Origin: a virus
DNA: 50,471 bases
Virus record (IMG/VR): IMGVR_UViG_3300047333_000047
Location: 1-50,471 of that record
Strand: one strand, 5' to 3'
Shown here: positions 2,078 to 18,461 of the stretch, piece after piece
Layout: every line of letters starts with the position of its first letter
Numbering within the stretch: the first letter of the stretch is position 1
Position numbers and translations under genes: made by a program
Notes under the pieces: model-generated
The model's database searches: none
Seen by the model: only the letters and a program-made list of their open reading frames with translations
What the model was told of the DNA's origin: nothing

Positions 2078-3664
2078 ATGGCGATTCTCGTAGCGAGCCA
2101 TTCGGGTGACCCGATCGAACTCCTCGGTCGCAAGAAACCAAGCGATAAGTATATGCGCTATGGTGCTGAGATCGAGACCGGTTGGAGAAACAGCACAGAC
2201 TACATAGGCTATCACGAAGCCCTTAGTGCTGCAGGACTCGATAACCTCGTGGTATCCAAAAGCGACGGCAGTATCTCTAGCTCCTATGGGGCTGAGATCG
2301 TAACCGTTCCCCTCAAACTCGAAGAACTCGTTGAAGCGGTAGGCCGCATAGGCGACGTCTTTGAGGCACAGCACAAGAAGGCACAGATCGGCGGCTGTGG
2401 CGTTCACATTCATGTGAGTGCTAAGCCGCTGACCGAACAGGCACGGTTTCGTGCTATGTCGGCCGTGATGTTCGACGCATTGACCTGGAAGCGCTGTGGC
2501 AAACGTGCCCCAAACGGACACGAATTGAAAGTTGCAGAACTCAATGCGTTTTGGGACCTCGTTGCTCTTCGTGGTAGTGAGAACTACTGCTCCAGAGTCT
2601 CGATGGGTCGATCGGAACTCCTGCGTAACTCTTCGCATAGCTACGCAGCAATTCAGGGGTATAGAAAACCCACGATCGAGTTTCGCATCTTTAAGACCTC
2701 ACGGTCTGCGAAGGTGTTGCGTAGCTATCCGGAAGTAGCAGCCGCTATCACAGCGTTTGCTGCATCGAACATAGCGATGCCGGAACCCGAAACGAACGAG
2801 GGAGGCATCGACAGGAACGCCTTTGCCGAGAAGTGCATGGAGCTCTATGCAGCAGAGCTGTGGTCGAATACCGACATGGTACCTATTCTTCAGGCTGCAA
2901 ACTGCACGAGCATGGCAGAAGCGATGGTGCGGTTCGGAATCAACCAGGGGCACTATAGCGAGAGTCGGGGAGTACAGACGAGTCTTTGCAGTCCTCATTA
3001 CTGCATTAATTACCAAGAACACGCTGCAGAACGCGTTAGGTGGTATCACAATCACGTCTACCAGCCGAGTTTCCTCGCTGCTATCAAGAACGTGTCGCAG
3101 AACTATGGCACGTTTTCGTGGGGCTTGAACACAGAAACGATCAAGGGGCTCTTTGCCAACATCGCAGATATGCCGGAGAGTGAGAGCACTGCGACCTACC
3201 CTTCGGCTAATACGGACCTGTGCTGGCCGTTGATTTTGGGTAGCCACCAAGAGTTTCAAGCAGCACTATTTTACAGTCAATCGGCCGCAGGAGGTATGAT
3301 AGCTCTGCCGTATGTCGGTGGGTTGCTGCCGGTGCGAGAGTTTACGGGATTCGTTCTCGATCAGCGCAGTAAGTATCCCAACTTCGCACGGCGCTTAGAT
3401 TTGGAGCGTTTCGCTCCATATCGTCCCGGTGGTACGTTCGTCACCGTTCCCGACTTCGACGGGACGCAACCCCACGACGATCTGCGAGTTGGCTGCAGAC
3501 TAGAGAATCAGTATTCGGAAGAAGTTGCCCGGGTGATTATCACAGACGATAAGTACCAGGCCAAGGTTAAGTACGAGAACGCAACCAACACGGCGTGGGT
3601 CAGTTTGCACGACTGGAATCACGTTTGCGAAGGCGCAAGTCGCCTAGAAAGCTGGGCAGAGTAA
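2078..3664 (+). CDS. Amidoligase-family enzyme (Amidoligase_2, GS/GCS-like fold)
   Basis: AAGGAG sits six bases before ATG 2078. The N-terminal half carries the motif series of the putative amidoligase family, which has a glutamine-synthetase-like fold: GAEIET (29-34), DGSI (63-66), GAEIVT (71-76), GCGVHIHVS with the HxH signature (106-114), and TIEFRIFKT near 198-206. These enzymes are predicted to make amide bonds between a carboxylate and an amine at the expense of ATP. The C-terminal 250 residues are not assigned. The next gene abuts directly (stop 3664, GTG 3665) and encodes a class II glutamine amidotransferase, which could release ammonia from glutamine. The substrate is unknown; cell-wall or protein modification is a family-level inference. 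Confidence 0.8.
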   Translation: MAILVASHSGDPIELLGRKKPSDKYMRYGAEIETGWRNSTDYIGYHEALSAAGLDNLVVSKSDGSISSSYGAEIVTVPLKLEELVEAVGRIGDVFEAQHKKAQIGGCGVHIHVSAKPLTEQARFRAMSAVMFDALTWKRCGKRAPNGHELKVAELNAFWDLVALRGSENYCSRVSMGRSELLRNSSHSYAAIQGYRKPTIEFRIFKTSRSAKVLRSYPEVAAAITAFAASNIAMPEPETNEGGIDRNAFAEKCMELYAAELWSNTDMVPILQAANCTSMAEAMVRFGINQGHYSESRGVQTSLCSPHYCINYQEHAAERVRWYHNHVYQPSFLAAIKNVSQNYGTFSWGLNTETIKGLFANIADMPESESTATYPSANTDLCWPLILGSHQEFQAALFYSQSAAGGMIALPYVGGLLPVREFTGFVLDQRSKYPNFARRLDLERFAPYRPGGTFVTVPDFDGTQPHDDLRVGCRLENQYSEEVARVIITDDKYQAKVKYENATNTAWVSLHDWNHVCEGASRLESWAE

Positions 3665-7245: not shown

Positions 7246-8058
7246 ATGGACTTAGAAACAAAACTCGCCGAGGCTCTTGCAAAGATGTTTGTAAACAGTC
7301 AACGGGCCCCACGAACCTGCGTCGAAGGGTTCGACGCAGCCGCCGCTATCGCTCGCGAGGTCGTTGCGAAGAGAGACGCTGAAATAGCCCAAGCATTGGA
7401 TGATCTTGCTAGATGGGAGTCAATAGCCCGCGACAGCATAAAGTACGGCTTGAAGAAAGACGCGGAGGTTGAGAGACTTGTCCAATGGCTCGTGGAGAAA
7501 GACGAGGAGATTGCGCGTCTGAAAAAGGACGCAGAGAACGCGGCCGCCGAAGCGCTCACCGTTACGGCGTTTGACTTCGGCGACGGTAACGGGCCCGTAC
7601 CTGCTCACAAGCACTCCAATGGTGGAGGCTGGGTAGCTGATACCGCGAAGGTTGACAATACAGCCTACGTCGGACGTGAGGCGCGGGTGTTCGGGTACGC
7701 TCGGGTGTCCGAGAACGCTCTTGTGTTCGGGAACGCTCGGGTGTTCGGTAACGCTTGGGTGTTCGGGGACGCTTGGGTGTCCGGGGACGCTCACGTGTAC
7801 GGGGACGTTCGGGTGTTCGGGAACGCTCACATGTTCGATAACGCTAGGGTGTCCGGGTATGCTAGGGTGTCCGAGAACGCTTCGGTATACGGGGACGCTT
7901 GGGTGTACGGGGACGCTTGGGTGTCCGGGGGCGCTCAGGTGTTCGGGGGCGCTCAGGTGTTCGGGGACGCGGCGGTGTATCAGAACGCTCGGGTGTTTGG
8001 GAACGCTCGGGTGTACGGGTACGCTCGGGTGTTCGAGGACGCTCGGGTGACGAAATGA
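7246..8058 (+). CDS. Coiled coil plus left-handed beta-helix hexapeptide-repeat protein (270 aa)
   Basis: GGAGG precedes ATG 7246. Residues about 35-105 are heptad-like and charged (coiled coil). Then comes a short HKHSNGGGWV segment (about 119-128), followed by exactly 23 hexads of the form xxxAxV (residues 131-268; for example FGNARV, SGDAHV, YGDAWV). This pattern is that of left-handed parallel beta-helices such as trimeric hexapeptide transferases and YdcK-like proteins, but no acetyltransferase catalytic loop is seen. Phages carry such repeats in structural or cytoplasmic scaffold-like proteins; the role here is unknown. It lies early, upstream of replication genes, not with tail genes. 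Confidence 0.75.
   Translation: MDLETKLAEALAKMFVNSQRAPRTCVEGFDAAAAIAREVVAKRDAEIAQALDDLARWESIARDSIKYGLKKDAEVERLVQWLVEKDEEIARLKKDAENAAAEALTVTAFDFGDGNGPVPAHKHSNGGGWVADTAKVDNTAYVGREARVFGYARVSENALVFGNARVFGNAWVFGDAWVSGDAHVYGDVRVFGNAHMFDNARVSGYARVSENASVYGDAWVYGDAWVSGGAQVFGGAQVFGDAAVYQNARVFGNARVYGYARVFEDARVTK
7636..8049 (+). repeat. 23 tandem 18-bp coding repeats
   Basis: The 414-bp block encodes 23 consecutive hexapeptides, each 18 bp, of which many match gtgttcgggaacgctcgg closely. Because 18 is a multiple of three and the repeat lacks stops, long spurious open frames appear on both strands. Tandem identity makes the array prone to gain or loss of units. Confidence 0.9.
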
Positions 8059-12900: not shown

Positions 12901-13026
12901 TTGCCCAGACGCCCTAAGTCTCAGGAGGACAAACCCCTCGTGAAACGGTATCGTATCATTCCTCTCGAAGAGGCCAAGAAGCGCCTCTTGGACGACCTGC
13001 GTGAGCAGGGAAAGATAAATGACTGA
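12901..13026 (+). CDS. Small basic protein (41 aa) before polymerase
   Basis: The frame directly follows the zinc-protein stop, with TTG at 12901. An in-frame GTG at 12940 has AGGAGG about eleven bases upstream and is the alternative start. The product is highly charged and helical (PLEEAKKRLLDDLREQGK). Its end overlaps the polymerase start by 8 nt, implying coupling. Unknown function. Confidence 0.5.
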   Translation: MPRRPKSQEDKPLVKRYRIIPLEEAKKRLLDDLREQGKIND

Positions 13027-15532
13027 GCCATGCACGAAATGCCCCCTTTGGAAATCCGCTACCACGAATTGCCTCGGTGGTGTGGGCCCCTCAGGGGGCA
13101 TTATGGTCGTAGGGGACTATCCATCGGAGTCAGACGATGCCTTCGGTGAGCCCTTCACAGGTCGAAGCGGCGCAATTTTGCGGGATATGCTTGCTGCTGC
13201 TGGCATTGAACCGGATTCCGTTCGTTACACTTTGGCGGCACGTTGCCGCCCCGCTAAAAAGCGCAAGCCAACGCCTAAGGAGGTTAATACTTGCCGTGAG
13301 TACCTACTATCAGAAATTGCGATTCATCGCCCTACACAAATCATCGCTTGCGGGGATGTCGCATTGCGAGCGCTTCTTTTCTTCGGGGGTGTCACGCGAC
13401 ATCGTGGTCAACGGTTCGAGTTTGGCGCTAGCCAAGGTAATACACTGGCACCTGAGTATGTGCCAACGGTGTTGTCTACGTTACACCCAGGCGCTGTGCT
13501 ACGAACACCCGCACTCTATGACACCGTTGTGTCAGACCTTAAGCAACTTGGTCATCCCGTCGTCGCACAACCCGTTTCCGCGGGTGAGACTCAGCGCACA
13601 GAATTGGTCATTGAGTTTTTCGACTATGGCAACGATGTTGCGAGCTTTCACGGACTGGTACGGCCCGGAGCCATTGTCGCCTGGGACGTCGAGACCAGTT
13701 ACTGGCAGGACGGCGGAGACCGCGTCATTCAATGGGCCGCAACTATCTACAGGGGAGGCGTGGAGACAACATTATGCAGCGATGACCCAGCTCTACTCGC
13801 AGAGCTTGCAGCGTACGCCGGACCCCCCGATGGTATTCTCCCCAGCGATGGCGGAGTCAGCTTGGCAACTGGGCTACAGGGAGTACAGCGGGGAGTCGGC
13901 GCTGCCTCTGCAGGCTTCCCCGGACGATCTACCGGAAACAGAAGCAGTGCCGAACTACAATGTCAGGACCCACCCGTACCGGGGGTGGCGCGGGATAGCG
14001 GATTCGCGGGGGGCGTAGAGTATGTTGGTCATAACTCGTGGCAAGCCGACATACCCTGGATGGCTAAGATGGGGTATCCAATGCCGCGTGGGCGGGATAC
14101 TATGGTCCTTGCGTACCTCATGGATGAGACCCAACCCCTTGGACTTGAACCTCTCGCTATGCGCTACCTTGGAGTTGCGGGGTGGAAAGACGAGGGCCGT
14201 ACGGCTGAACCTGGATCTTTCGAGTTCCAGCTTTACAACGCCCGAGACGCCCTTTACACGGCCCGCCTTTACAAGATCTTCAAAGGAGAACTAGGTGAAA
14301 GAATCAAAATCGCCGACTACATCATCGGGCCCGGACAGCAAGCTCTCGCTGCTTGCTCCGCACGGGGGCTACGTGTTTCTCTTCGGGCCGTCGAGGAGGC
14401 AGAGCGATTCTATTCGGATCGAGCCCGGGCAGCGCGTCACGATCTCCAACTTTGGGGAATCGAAAACCCAAACGCAACCCGCCAGCTCACCGACTGCCTT
14501 GTTAGTCAAGGGTACGACCTCACCGAAGAAACTGAAACAGGCGAGCTGAAGCTCGACAAGGAGGTCCTATCAAAACTGCCGCAGACACCACTGGTCGAGA
14601 GTATCCGCGAGTACAAGTTCGCCGAGAAGCGTCGGCAGATGGTCGAGCCCTATCGCCTTGCCGCCCTCTCGGAGGATGGCAGGGTGCATCCAGAGTATAC
14701 CGTTGTCCGCACTGCCACGGGGCGTACTTCTGCACGGAAGCCGAATGTGCAGCAGGTAGCTCGCGACCCCATTATGCGAGCTATGTTACCGGGCGGGCAG
14801 GCCGACTACTCAGCTATCGAGTTCAGACTAGCTGCATGGATTGCCCGCGAGGAAGGCGTCTTAGAGCGTTTTCGCCAGGACCCATTTTGGGACCCGCACC
14901 GCTGGTTCGCCGCCTTGTACTACAACATTCTGGAGGAGGAGGTAACCGATGACCAAAGGCAAGTTGCGAAATCTGCTAACTTTGGACTGCTCTTTAAGGC
15001 CCTCCCTCCCACTCTCGTGGACTACACCCGTGCAACAACAGGGATCGTCTTGCCTTTGGCAGAAGCGGCTCGCATTCGGCAAGCTTGGCTTAAGGCTCTC
15101 CCTGGATTTCCACAATGGTGGGGACGGACCGAAACTTTCATTAAGAAGCACGGTTATGCTGAATCCCCCACTGGACGACGGAGACACTTCGGCCCCCCCA
15201 TCATCGTCAAGCGAAGCTACAACCTTGCCGAGTTCGTTCGTGAGGGAGTCAATTCGCAGGTACAAGGATTCGCCGCCGACGTCGCTCTACTCGGGCTTCA
15301 CGGCGCACATATCAACGGATTGCCCATCACAGGGTTCTACCACGATGCCATATCTTTTGACACAGAAGTTGAGCCTGAACTTGTGGCGAGGAACATGCTC
15401 GCGGTGCCCAAAAGTATTTTGGGCGACCGCTTCGGAATAGACCTCGACATCCCACTCGCAATCGAACTAAAACAGAACGGAGAGAAGCACACTATGTCCT
15501 ACCTCAACGGAGAAGTCGTGTGGAAGAATTAA
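13019..15532 (+). CDS. DNA polymerase: UDG-like + 3'-5' exonuclease + family A polymerase
   Basis: Three domains in 837 residues. Residues 1-185: family 4-type uracil-DNA glycosylase fold with four cysteines for a 4Fe-4S cluster (C5, C8, C76, C92), motif A-like VVGDYPSESDD (30-40) and motif B-like LHPGAVLR. Residues about 215-400: DnaQ-like exonuclease with DVETS (D223, E225) and GHNSWQADIPWM. Residues about 450-837: PolA palm with DYSAIEFR (D596), AKSANFG, and HDA (H775, D776). Residues about 270-330 (13829-14013) are low in protein character; another frame, bounded by C6 and G6 runs, is more convincing there. UDG-polymerase fusions are known in phages. This is the replicative polymerase. 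Confidence 0.85.
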   Translation: MTEPCTKCPLWKSATTNCLGGVGPSGGIMVVGDYPSESDDAFGEPFTGRSGAILRDMLAAAGIEPDSVRYTLAARCRPAKKRKPTPKEVNTCREYLLSEIAIHRPTQIIACGDVALRALLFFGGVTRHRGQRFEFGASQGNTLAPEYVPTVLSTLHPGAVLRTPALYDTVVSDLKQLGHPVVAQPVSAGETQRTELVIEFFDYGNDVASFHGLVRPGAIVAWDVETSYWQDGGDRVIQWAATIYRGGVETTLCSDDPALLAELAAYAGPPDGILPSDGGVSLATGLQGVQRGVGAASAGFPGRSTGNRSSAELQCQDPPVPGVARDSGFAGGVEYVGHNSWQADIPWMAKMGYPMPRGRDTMVLAYLMDETQPLGLEPLAMRYLGVAGWKDEGRTAEPGSFEFQLYNARDALYTARLYKIFKGELGERIKIADYIIGPGQQALAACSARGLRVSLRAVEEAERFYSDRARAARHDLQLWGIENPNATRQLTDCLVSQGYDLTEETETGELKLDKEVLSKLPQTPLVESIREYKFAEKRRQMVEPYRLAALSEDGRVHPEYTVVRTATGRTSARKPNVQQVARDPIMRAMLPGGQADYSAIEFRLAAWIAREEGVLERFRQDPFWDPHRWFAALYYNILEEEVTDDQRQVAKSANFGLLFKALPPTLVDYTRATTGIVLPLAEAARIRQAWLKALPGFPQWWGRTETFIKKHGYAESPTGRRRHFGPPIIVKRSYNLAEFVREGVNSQVQGFAADVALLGLHGAHINGLPITGFYHDAISFDTEVEPELVARNMLAVPKSILGDRFGIDLDIPLAIELKQNGEKHTMSYLNGEVVWKN

Positions 15533-16353
15533 TCCTAAGTAGCTCTAGCTTGAAGCTCTTTCGAAACTGCCGGAACGCCTACAAGCTAGGGTACGTCTAC
15601 AACCTCGACCCGATAGGCACGGAGTCCGAAGCCGTCGAGAACGGTACGGCCATCCACGCCTACTTGGAGCGAGCCGCTAAGGGCGATGACGAGTGGATGC
15701 GTGGGGACACAGCGGTTGACCAGAACGGATTGGTAGCCCAATACTTTTTGGAACACCACCCTCTGCCCCCGAACATCATTATGGCCGAGGACCGTGAGTT
15801 CTTCGTGAAGCTCCTTGATGACGAGACGTGGATCCGTTGTACGTTCGATCTCGTGTACGAGCGCAACGGCGAGATCGTGATTCGAGACTACAAGACCTTC
15901 TCGCGGGCCCCCTCGCTCAACCTCGACCTGGACTTTCAGGCCCGCTTCTACATCGCAGCGGCGCAGAAGCATTTCCAGAAGCCCGTGTCCTTCGAGTACG
16001 TGTTCATCCGGCAGACCCCGCCCGGTGTCCCCAAGGACAAGGCGGGCAAGTGCTGGGAGCCCGAAGAGTGCTACCTCTTCTATCCGCTCGACATACCGCA
16101 GCAGGAAGCCGACCGCGTATGGGCCGAGGCCCAATGGACGGCAACGGACCTGGAGCGCGCCTTGGAAGACTCGGAGGAGTCCGGTGCCGTGTGGTATCAT
16201 AACGACCGCAAGGGCTTCGGCGGGTGCGACTCGTGCTTCTACAAGCGCCTGTGTGCGGCCGAGAATCAGATGGGAAGCCTTGACGAGGAGACGATCGCCC
16301 AGTTGTCGAAACCAAGAGAACCACTCGTCCTACCAGAAAGGTACCGCCAATGA
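15520..16353 (+). CDS. PD-(D/E)XK exonuclease, Cas4/RecB-like, with Fe-S cysteines
   Basis: GTG 15520 has GGAG seven bases upstream and overlaps the polymerase end by 13 nt. Cys17 (FRNCRNAYKL) plus the C-terminal trio C236, C239, C245 (GCDSCFYKRLC) match the 4Fe-4S arrangement of Cas4/AddB-type nucleases. The catalytic core is TFDLVYERNGEIVIRDYKTF (FD ... DYK). The length of 277 is normal. It probably degrades or resects DNA during recombination with the Sak4-like ATPase and SSB-like protein downstream. Confidence 0.85.
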   Translation: MEELILSSSSLKLFRNCRNAYKLGYVYNLDPIGTESEAVENGTAIHAYLERAAKGDDEWMRGDTAVDQNGLVAQYFLEHHPLPPNIIMAEDREFFVKLLDDETWIRCTFDLVYERNGEIVIRDYKTFSRAPSLNLDLDFQARFYIAAAQKHFQKPVSFEYVFIRQTPPGVPKDKAGKCWEPEECYLFYPLDIPQQEADRVWAEAQWTATDLERALEDSEESGAVWYHNDRKGFGGCDSCFYKRLCAAENQMGSLDEETIAQLSKPREPLVLPERYRQ

Positions 16354-16754
16354 ATGAAGACAATCGCCCAAGCCTAAGTGTGGACGGTGAAACGTTCCGC
16401 AAAACCATCGTTAACGCGACCCAGGTTGCGGCTAGGGAAACCCTAGAGTCCGTGCGCCGGTCGCTCAACGAGTCGTACAACACCTTTACGCAAGCTCAAG
16501 ACCTTACGTCCGTCGAGAAGGAAGAGCTCGCAACGATGACGCGCCTGCGTTTCCAGCAGTTTCAAACAGTTGTAGCCGAGACGCTCACGACGTTCCTTGA
16601 CACGTTCCTAGCCGACCTCATGGCACTGGAGACGCCCGCAGGGGCCGTGTCCGCCTCAACTGGCGAAATTATTCCTCCGCCCCCGGCCACAGGCGAACCG
16701 TCCTGGCAGAAGCTGCACGACATTATCGGCTATAAGTCTGCCGAAGCTAAGTAA
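16350..16754 (+). CDS. Helical protein of the recombination operon (134 aa), unknown
   Basis: ATG 16350 overlaps the exonuclease stop by 4 nt, with AAAGG upstream. It is predicted mostly alpha-helical (residues 15-95, regular hydrophobic spacing, few glycines). A short proline-rich linker (IIPPPPATGEP) leads to a small C-terminal segment (WQKLHDIIGYKS). No recognised family. Tight coupling between the exonuclease and the ATPase suggests an accessory recombination or replication factor. Confidence 0.65.
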   Translation: MNEDNRPSLSVDGETFRKTIVNATQVAARETLESVRRSLNESYNTFTQAQDLTSVEKEELATMTRLRFQQFQTVVAETLTTFLDTFLADLMALETPAGAVSASTGEIIPPPPATGEPSWQKLHDIIGYKSAEAK

Positions 16755-16764
16755 GGAGAAGCCG

Positions 16765-17589
16765 ATTATTTACCTACTGAACGCCGACCGCGGCTCGTAT
16801 GGGTCCGTGAAGCCACTTGTGGACGCGGGCCGTGTTACTCTTCTTCCGTGTGCCACGTATACCGCCTTTGAAGCCCACACCAAAGCTCTTCGCGAGAAGG
16901 TCGAGTGGGTAGACGGCGTCAACGAGGCGGGCGACCCTTGTAAGGTCGTCAAGCCACACGACGACCTCGTTATCCTCGACTCCGTTAGCCGCATGGCAGA
17001 CTCGACGCGAGGAGACTTTAAGCTAGGACCGGACGAGACGGAGTTCTGGGGTAAGCGTGACATCTATTACAAGGGTGACACGTATAACTTCGGAGCATAC
17101 GAGGCGGCGGGTAACTTCATCATGCGGCACCTCCGAAACCTTAACGTCCGGGGTTACCGCATTGTGGCTATCTGTCACGAGGACGAGCAGAAGGACGAGA
17201 ACGAGGGTATCAAGAAGCGTGGACCGGCGCTGAACCCCGCCTTTTGGCAGAGCCTCCGAGCGACGAGCTCGGACATCTACCGCCTCACCGTGGTCCCGGA
17301 GGATACAACCGACGCCGAGGGGAACCTCGTCGCTCGGGCCGGAACGCGACTCTTGCAGACGACGCTCGATGAGATCGCCATCTGCAAGTACACGGCACCC
17401 CCGACTCTTGAAGGAGAGTTCAAAGTCGTGCCGAAATACTTAGCGAACCCCACCATGCGGAAGATCACCCGCATGCTAGGCGTTCAACCAGACTTTGTCA
17501 CCCTATACGGTGACCCGGGCGCGGGTAAGACCACGCTCGCCTGCTCCGACGCATTCGATGTTAAACCAAGAAAGAAGACAAATGAGTAA
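16765..17589 (+). CDS. Circularly permuted Sak4-like (AAA_24/RecA-fold) ATPase
   Basis: Sak4-type ATPases normally read P-loop, second strand, Walker B, C-terminal strands. Here the order is rotated: the protein opens with the second strand (IIYLLNADRGSYGS), then Walker B DLVILDSVSR with D72, then AICHEDEQKDE and GPALNPAFWQ elements. It ends with a canonical first strand and P-loop VTLYGDPGAGKTT (P-loop 249-257 of 274). AAGGAG (16753-16758) lies six bases before ATT 16765, so ATT seems to be the start codon. GTG 16807 would remove a core strand. The fold should still close. The SSB-like gene follows with an overlap. Expected role: single-strand annealing or recombination. Confidence 0.8.
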   Translation: MIYLLNADRGSYGSVKPLVDAGRVTLLPCATYTAFEAHTKALREKVEWVDGVNEAGDPCKVVKPHDDLVILDSVSRMADSTRGDFKLGPDETEFWGKRDIYYKGDTYNFGAYEAAGNFIMRHLRNLNVRGYRIVAICHEDEQKDENEGIKKRGPALNPAFWQSLRATSSDIYRLTVVPEDTTDAEGNLVARAGTRLLQTTLDEIAICKYTAPPTLEGEFKVVPKYLANPTMRKITRMLGVQPDFVTLYGDPGAGKTTLACSDAFDVKPRKKTNE

Positions 17590-18154
17590 CGAAGTACAAA
17601 CGACAAGCCTCGATGAGATTGATGACATCGTAACCCGCCCGGAGGTCGGCCGCTATCGCGGTAAGCTCTTGCAGGTTACGGGTGAAATCTCGTCGGGCAA
17701 GAATCCGATGATTACCCCGATCTACGTTATCACGGAGGGCAACTTCGAGGGAGCGGAGACACGCCAGTGGCTCACGCTCTTCAAGAAAAAGTCCAAGAAG
17801 AACCAAAAGACCTACGCCTTCGGCCCGATGGAAATCAAGCGCATCTTCGCGCTCGTCGGTAAGCCGCTCCCGGCAGGTTTCAAGTTCCCGATGATCGACG
17901 CGGACGACCCGAACGTTGACGAGAACGACAAGCAGAAGGTTGCGGACGCAGCGGCTTCGCTCTTCGCGAAACGCCTTGCGAATCTCGATCTTGAGATCGT
18001 AATCTCGGACGATGGCGAGTCGGATAAGATCGACGAACGCACGGGTAAGCCGTACCGGCGCACCCGCACGAGCATCGCGGGCCTCTTTAAGAAGGCCGCA
18101 CCCGTAGTCGCGGCGGATGTCAAAGACCCGTACGACGACGATGAAGACGAGTGA
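17582..18154 (+). CDS. SSB-like protein with acidic C-terminal tail (190 aa)
   Basis: ATG 17582 overlaps the ATPase stop (ATGAGTAA). The body has beta-rich segments (YRGKLLQVTGEISSG ... QWLTLFKKKS) compatible with an OB-type fold. The protein ends in an acidic tail (DPYDDDEDE), as bacterial and T7-like single-stranded DNA-binding proteins do for partner recruitment. It is placed directly after a Sak4-like ATPase, a usual partnership. The family is not certain from sequence alone. The 3' end overlaps the nuclease gene. Confidence 0.65.
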   Translation: MSNEVQTTSLDEIDDIVTRPEVGRYRGKLLQVTGEISSGKNPMITPIYVITEGNFEGAETRQWLTLFKKKSKKNQKTYAFGPMEIKRIFALVGKPLPAGFKFPMIDADDPNVDENDKQKVADAAASLFAKRLANLDLEIVISDDGESDKIDERTGKPYRRTRTSIAGLFKKAAPVVAADVKDPYDDDEDE

Positions 18155-18461
18155 GCTTGAATCCGTCCTCCAGAAGCGCGTCCTTAAACGTCTTGACGCT
18201 TACGGCGGTTTCTGGTCAAAGACCTGGGGTGGGCCCTACGCCCGTCCTGGGGTCTTTGACATCGTGGGTTGCCTTAACGGGAAGTTCGTGGCAATCGAGC
18301 TCAAAGCGCCGGGCAAGTACAAAACCCCAACGGCGGGGCTTACCCCGGCACAGTGGAACTATCTCTCACAAGTAAGAGCGAACGGCGGCTACGCCATCGT
18401 TGAAGACAACGAAGAAGCGCTCTTCGAGAAGCTCAAAGAGATCGACGCGAAGCCTAGCTAG
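18141..18461 (+). CDS. VRR-NUC-type nuclease (106 aa)
   Basis: ATG 18141 overlaps the SSB-like gene; an in-frame ATG at 18117 is possible but no better supported. Conserved VRR-NUC features: an N-terminal helix (ESVLQKRVLKRL), WSKTWGGPYARPGVFDIVG with the catalytic Asp, and AIELKAPGK (E-x-K), then TPAQWNYLSQVRANGGYAIVED. Stand-alone VRR-NUC proteins are phage structure-specific or Holliday-junction nucleases. It is the last plus-strand gene and converges on the late operon with a 4-nt overlap. Confidence 0.85.
   Translation: MKTSELESVLQKRVLKRLDAYGGFWSKTWGGPYARPGVFDIVGCLNGKFVAIELKAPGKYKTPTAGLTPAQWNYLSQVRANGGYAIVEDNEEALFEKLKEIDAKPS

Follow-up and report, generated by a model that had tools for sequence, protein, structure and literature searches.

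What kind of protein carries the motifs of a RecA-type ATPase with the P-loop at its C-terminal end? The question is raised by a gene at positions 16765-17589 (+) of the window, by which we mean the whole stretch of DNA analyzed here, a virus record of 50,471 bases without end repeats. The reading frame is open and its motifs occur in the order IIYLLNADRGS (strand 2), LVILD (Walker B), later strands and then the P-loop. An initial annotation, made from the sequence alone, had described this order, with strand 1 and the P-loop (Walker A, GDPGAGKTT, residues 249-257 of 274) in last place, and had interpreted the protein as a circularly permuted Sak4/RecA-like ATPase. The order held; it is real and chance is excluded. 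The interpretation is supported by sequence rotation, by relatives and by a predicted structure, and we consider it very likely (probability about 0.9) that the gene encodes a naturally occurring, circularly permuted form of Sak4, a phage recombinase with a RecA/Rad51 core. The features of the gene are the following:

16765-17589 (+): very probably a Sak4-like ATPase in circularly permuted form; 274 aa, with ATT as start and a stop that overlaps the start of the next gene
16765-16788 (+): strand 2 (IIYLLNAD), now N-terminal; its last residue is the invariant acid D8
16966-16980 (+): residues 68-72, LVILD, the Walker B motif; D72 is invariant, whether the protein is permuted or canonical
17428-17478 (+): residues 222-238, VPKYLANPTMRKITRML, the former C-terminus; homology to the helix at the C-terminus of canonical Sak4
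17479-17493 (+): GVQPD, a new linker between the former C- and N-termini, in the region of the rotation optimum (residues 238-244)
17494-17535 (+): residues 244-257, FVTLYGDPGAGKTT; strand 1 and Walker A P-loop, moved to the C-terminal end

Searched against PHROG 124 (Sak4-like ssDNA annealing protein), the protein matched with E = 6e-16 in two pieces of reversed order, and against Pfam AAA_24 with E = 2e-7. The homology to Sak4 spans the whole core, with canonical N and C fragments aligning to both halves. The C-terminal Walker A is the sole one: neither the window protein nor any of the five relatives described below contains a second P-loop. The Sak4 hallmarks Walker A and Walker B Asp are present, with the P-loop glycines, the Lys and D72 invariant in six of six permuted proteins, and an invariant His-Glu pair (H138-E139) is kept across them as well. 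What is absent is the canonical linear order, in which the P-loop stands ahead of strand 2 and Walker B; because the order is permuted in all six proteins, we file them as permuted derivatives of Sak4 and not as ordinary members. D8 occupies what we take to be the catalytic-acid position of RecA/Sak4. Strand 2 ends in an Asp throughout the permuted proteins (6/6), one alignment column off the canonical Glu, which was found at the end of this strand in 15 of 15 canonical Sak4 proteins sampled. The AAA-ATPase of Microbacterium phage CaptainRex, a protein of canonical order, also has an Asp (SADRG) at the strand-2 end; therefore, Glu may not be strictly defining for Sak4.

The segment preceding the P-loop, VPKYLANPTMRKITRMLG, had been taken in the initial annotation for a normal N-terminus. 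This part of the claim failed, and the segment is the old C-terminus: VPKYLANPTMRKITRML can be equated with the canonical Sak4 C-terminus because relatives carry PEYIVNPTYDKIL or LENPTYEKII at the C-terminus. The old N-terminus comprises no more than GVQPD, a short linker, and strand 1. A profile search with a rotated sequence, which had been proposed as a check, came out for permutation. Against a profile built from seven phage Sak4 proteins of canonical order, we scored all 274 plain rotations of the window protein; the best rotation, cut at residue 243, reached 44.1 bits vs 24.8 bits for the native order. When the gap in the rotated sequence was bridged with the KEKP codons located just upstream of ATT 16765 in the same frame, the score rose to 50.2 bits in a single domain, vs 24.8 and 15.8 bits in two pieces of inverted order for the native sequence. 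The rotation optimum coincides with the predicted junction at residues 238-244.

A second check proposed at the outset was whether related phages share the permuted order, and five other viral contigs do, which argues for an inherited protein and against a sequencing mix-up. Four of these contigs (L159, L160, L166 and L168) were among the 29 stretches that a DNA pattern for the junction (Asn-Pro, a fixed gap, Tyr-Gly-P-loop; expectation 0.00 in shuffles of the window) returned from IMG/VR, and a profile scan added the fifth, L286. Identity between the relatives and the window protein is 31-49%, 33 alignment columns are invariant, and all six permuted proteins passed the AAA_24 cut-off. Each relative starts at strand 2, ends about 15-35 residues past the P-loop and has an open reading frame with an ATG or GTG start. 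A hidden N-terminal P-loop further upstream was considered and rejected, as an in-frame stop lies right before the strand-2 start in L159, L166 and L168. At the level of whole contigs, the match to the PHROG 124 core (C-part) was located upstream of the P-loop match within one open frame in each contig, and a canonical Sak4 copy, or any other Sak4-sized match, was found nowhere else in the six contigs.

Other searches yielded no additional members. The fixed-gap pattern returned 112 stretches from 84,980 bacterial and archaeal genomes, none of them encoding a permuted Sak4. Using tblastn, the proteins of the window, L160, L166, L168 and L286 had no match in 50,697 phage records, in which a rotated query gave weak canonical matches only. 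Scans of viral and genome contigs with single window proteins (Sak4, SSB, DNA polymerase) found no relative, an earlier junction pattern of variable gap returned mostly PhoH-like and canonical proteins, and alignment A1 contained no stretch conserved enough for use as a search query.

A tree of 48 proteins places the six permuted sequences in a single clade with 100/100 support, separate from the 42 canonical Sak4 proteins, to which they are connected by a long branch of 1.8 changes per column, and the permuted state needs a single change of state. Homologs of the terminase (29-55% identity) and of the portal protein (31-57% identity) of the window are present in all five relatives. One permutation event followed by vertical descent is the parsimonious reading of these data, and it is an inference. 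Duplication plus trimming is the usual route to circular permutation; here, tandem duplication or fusion and subsequent trimming in the ancestor of the lineage may have been the route. Tandem duplication and trimming had already been put forward in the initial annotation and remain inferred, and no duplicated or fused intermediate was seen. The closest relative seen, judged by a terminase 87% identical to that of the window, is a 10.9-kb fragment (L002, IMGVR_UViG_3300047326_000023); it lies on the side of the structural genes and, if its genes are arranged alike, does not extend far enough to include those for recombination.

Given no rows other than the six permuted ones, AlphaFold2 produced a poor model (pLDDT 59.7, about 30 in the P-loop block). 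When N-terminal and C-terminal pieces of canonical proteins, taken from 15 phage contigs, were added as separate rows, the model reached a pLDDT of 90.2 and a pTM of 0.87, with residues 231-260 (the P-loop block) at a confidence of about 96-97 and strand 244-249 hydrogen-bonded in a sheet. The predicted model is one compact RecA-core domain without an apparent separate second domain. An extra domain formed by the C-terminal P-loop, together with a second P-loop in the first 100 residues, had been named as an outcome that would refute the permutation; a single domain is predicted and no second P-loop exists. It has to be considered that the fragment rows supplied the P-loop piece in the permuted register and that these rows contain no coevolution between the halves. 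Among solved structures, VIA-align placed phage Sak4 8rc5 first (Z 13.9, 3.1 A over 172 residues), followed by Rad51 paralogues (Z about 10). Model residues 1-240 were aligned with chain positions 50-257 of 8rc5, i.e., with the portion that follows the P-loop in the canonical protein. Any alignment method bound to chain order would be expected to omit just the moved P-loop segment, as was observed. Foldseek alone placed the model poorly, with no listed BFVD match above TM 0.61 by query length, which is expected because a sequential aligner here meets a permuted chain. That the P-loop joins the RecA-core sheet is a prediction of the model, resting on model confidence and secondary structure and not on a superposition.

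The gene is part of a recombination cassette, the other members of which are:

13019-15532 (+): family A DNA polymerase with N-terminal uracil-DNA-glycosylase domain, at the head of the cassette
15520-16353 (+): PD-(D/E)XK (Cas4/RecB-like) exonuclease; Pfam PDDEXK_1 E = 1.7e-19; phrog_1218/69
16350-16754 (+): 134-aa protein of unknown function, between the exonuclease and Sak4
17582-18154 (+): SSB-like protein with the acidic C-terminal tail DPYDDDEDE, adjoining the Sak4 gene
18117-18461 (+): small endonuclease / Holliday-junction-resolvase-like protein at the cassette end; phrog_93 E = 2.6e-18

In those contigs that were examined, the gene for DNA polymerase A is followed in turn by those for exonuclease, permuted Sak4 and SSB-like protein, and canonical phages have polymerase, exonuclease and Sak4 at matching places. 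The SSB-like protein of the window is 35% identical (E = 5e-22) to the phrog_378 SSB of L166 and is likely the partner of Sak4. An endonuclease of the same kind as that of the window also follows the SSB gene in L160. Between the 134-aa protein and a 123-aa protein at the same place in L166 (5521-5892, -), no similarity was detectable. Separately, we observed that the window polymerase contains about 87 residues of odd composition at 13763-14023 (SDGGVSLATGLQGVQRGVGAASAGFPGRST...) vs about 18 in L166; it was not resolved whether this difference represents an insertion or compensating frameshifts.

Purified HK620 Sak4 binds ssDNA and performs ATP-dependent annealing, which is stimulated by the adjacently encoded SSB via the SSB tail (PMC5928155), and the Sak4 of phage 52A forms Rad51-like filaments (PMC11846896). 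Because Walker A and B, the strand-2 acid, H138-E139 and the exonuclease and SSB neighbors are all kept, we infer the same job for the permuted protein. In the mechanism we propose, the old C-terminal helix would pass through a linker of about 5 residues into the old strand 1 and P-loop, and the new chain ends would fall in the connection from the P-loop helix to strand 2. The protein would fold as an ordinary RecA core, bringing Walker A, Walker B and the strand-2 acid together in one ATP site. By analogy to HK620 Sak4, the protein would bind ATP, load on ssDNA coated by the neighboring SSB and anneal strands resected by the neighboring exonuclease during phage replication and recombination. 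ATP-dependent, SSB-assisted single-strand annealing is in our inference the most likely function; ATP binding, filaments and annealing have not been shown for the permuted form. What is shown for permuted Sak4 is the order, its conservation in six phages, the single clade, the conserved catalytic motifs and the exonuclease/SSB partnership, and the fold is predicted. Points against our explanation are the lack of biochemistry, the Asp in place of the catalytic Glu and the missing conventional start in the window copy.

The latter point concerns the codon at 16765, which is ATT. In the window frame, there is no ATG, GTG or TTG upstream of strand 2. GTG 16807 is the first start codon of a conventional kind, and a protein begun there would be without this strand. 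The ATT aligns with the ATG or GTG starts of the relatives (window ATT ATT TAC CTA CTG vs L160 ATG ATT TAC CTC CTG) and is preceded by a ribosome-binding motif:

16752-16758 (+): Shine-Dalgarno sequence TAAGGAG, 6 nt before ATT 16765, overlapping the stop of the upstream gene (16752-16754)

Inferred from these letters, a start of translation at AUU 16765 is the reading we favor for the window copy. A single-base point mutation or a sequencing error at this codon remains possible and cannot be excluded.

The rival explanation that survives best, unlikely as we consider it, is a working permuted RecA-fold ATPase that is no longer an annealase and, e.g., regulates or loads the neighboring exonuclease or SSB. 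The long branch to the canonical proteins and the replacement of the catalytic Glu in all six sequences speak for it. Against it stand the cassette position between exonuclease and SSB, which is that of canonical Sak4, the SADRG motif in the canonical-order CaptainRex protein, and the fact that no other Sak4-family recombinase was found in these contigs. Much less support remains for a decaying pseudogene consisting of permuted Sak4 fragments that no longer work. The ATT at the expected start and a first conventional start that drops strand 2 would fit this idea, but 33 residues, including Walker A, Walker B, D8 and H138-E139, are invariant at only 31-49% identity, the relatives have open frames and ATG/GTG starts, another Sak4 is missing from each of the six contigs, and a strong Shine-Dalgarno sequence lies 6 nt before the ATT. 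Finally, a canonical Sak4 gene shuffled by metagenome assembly error or chimera formation would agree with a metagenome-derived contig, the lack of a close relative covering the region and the unconventional start, but it is all but excluded, as the reading frame is intact across both junctions and five further contigs with the same order, a conserved junction and the same flanking genes in effect refute it.

Read as a permuted Sak4, the protein resembles the Sak4 proteins of HK620 and 52A (PDB 8rc5) as a RecA-core ATPase with Walker A and B, a C-terminal 'NPTxxKI'-type helix, exonuclease and SSB genes as flanks and, in the predicted model, a RecA core only (274 aa), without an extra domain; 8rc5 is also its nearest solved fold. 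Unlike in Sak4, strand 2 leads, strand 1 and the P-loop trail, and Asp replaces the catalytic Glu. The predicted core fold is likewise that of RecA, Rad51 and RadB, but the protein is permuted and possesses neither the C-terminal domain of RecA nor the N-terminal domain of Rad51. The YRG family and cpRAS are natural circularly permuted GTPases (PMC2430557); to our knowledge, natural circular permutants of other P-loop NTPases are not known. With these GTPases (YRG family, e.g., YjeQ/YqeH; cpRAS), the protein shares the character of a P-loop NTPase with rotated motifs and a kept fold, but it is a RecA-type ATPase, cut elsewhere and from a different P-loop lineage. Sequence and fold searches with the permuted protein gave no match to a GTPase family, and the matches were to Sak4/AAA_24 and RecA-type proteins.

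We recognized no description of a permuted Sak4/RecA-type protein in the open-access literature searched, consistent with the initial annotation, in which no such recombination ATPase was known as described; this absence is not proof. In a bolder reading, which we regard as likely, no natural circular permutation had been described before for a recombinase of the RecA/Rad51 fold; the permuted protein is conserved in a phage clade and tolerates Walker A at the C-terminus, apparently without loss of its role. The use of an AUU start codon by the window copy is a possible addition to this reading. A permuted recombinase in six phages constitutes a natural experiment on the connections within the RecA fold with regard to ATP binding, filament formation and co-translational folding. 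Where annotation depends on motif order, such proteins come out as a truncated AAA_24 match and a stray P-loop; therefore, others may be overlooked. Moreover, the satellite SaPI2 attacks Sak4 filaments (PMC11846896), which makes a topological variant an obvious test case for inhibitor recognition.

Elsewhere in the window, a 270-aa protein of unknown function (7246-8058, +; phrog_7964/5070) is encoded by a gene with tandem 18-bp repeats at 7764-7966, e.g., CGGGGACGCTTGGGTGTC, and an amidoligase-like enzyme is encoded at 2078-3664 (+; phrog_7469, E = 1.6e-6).
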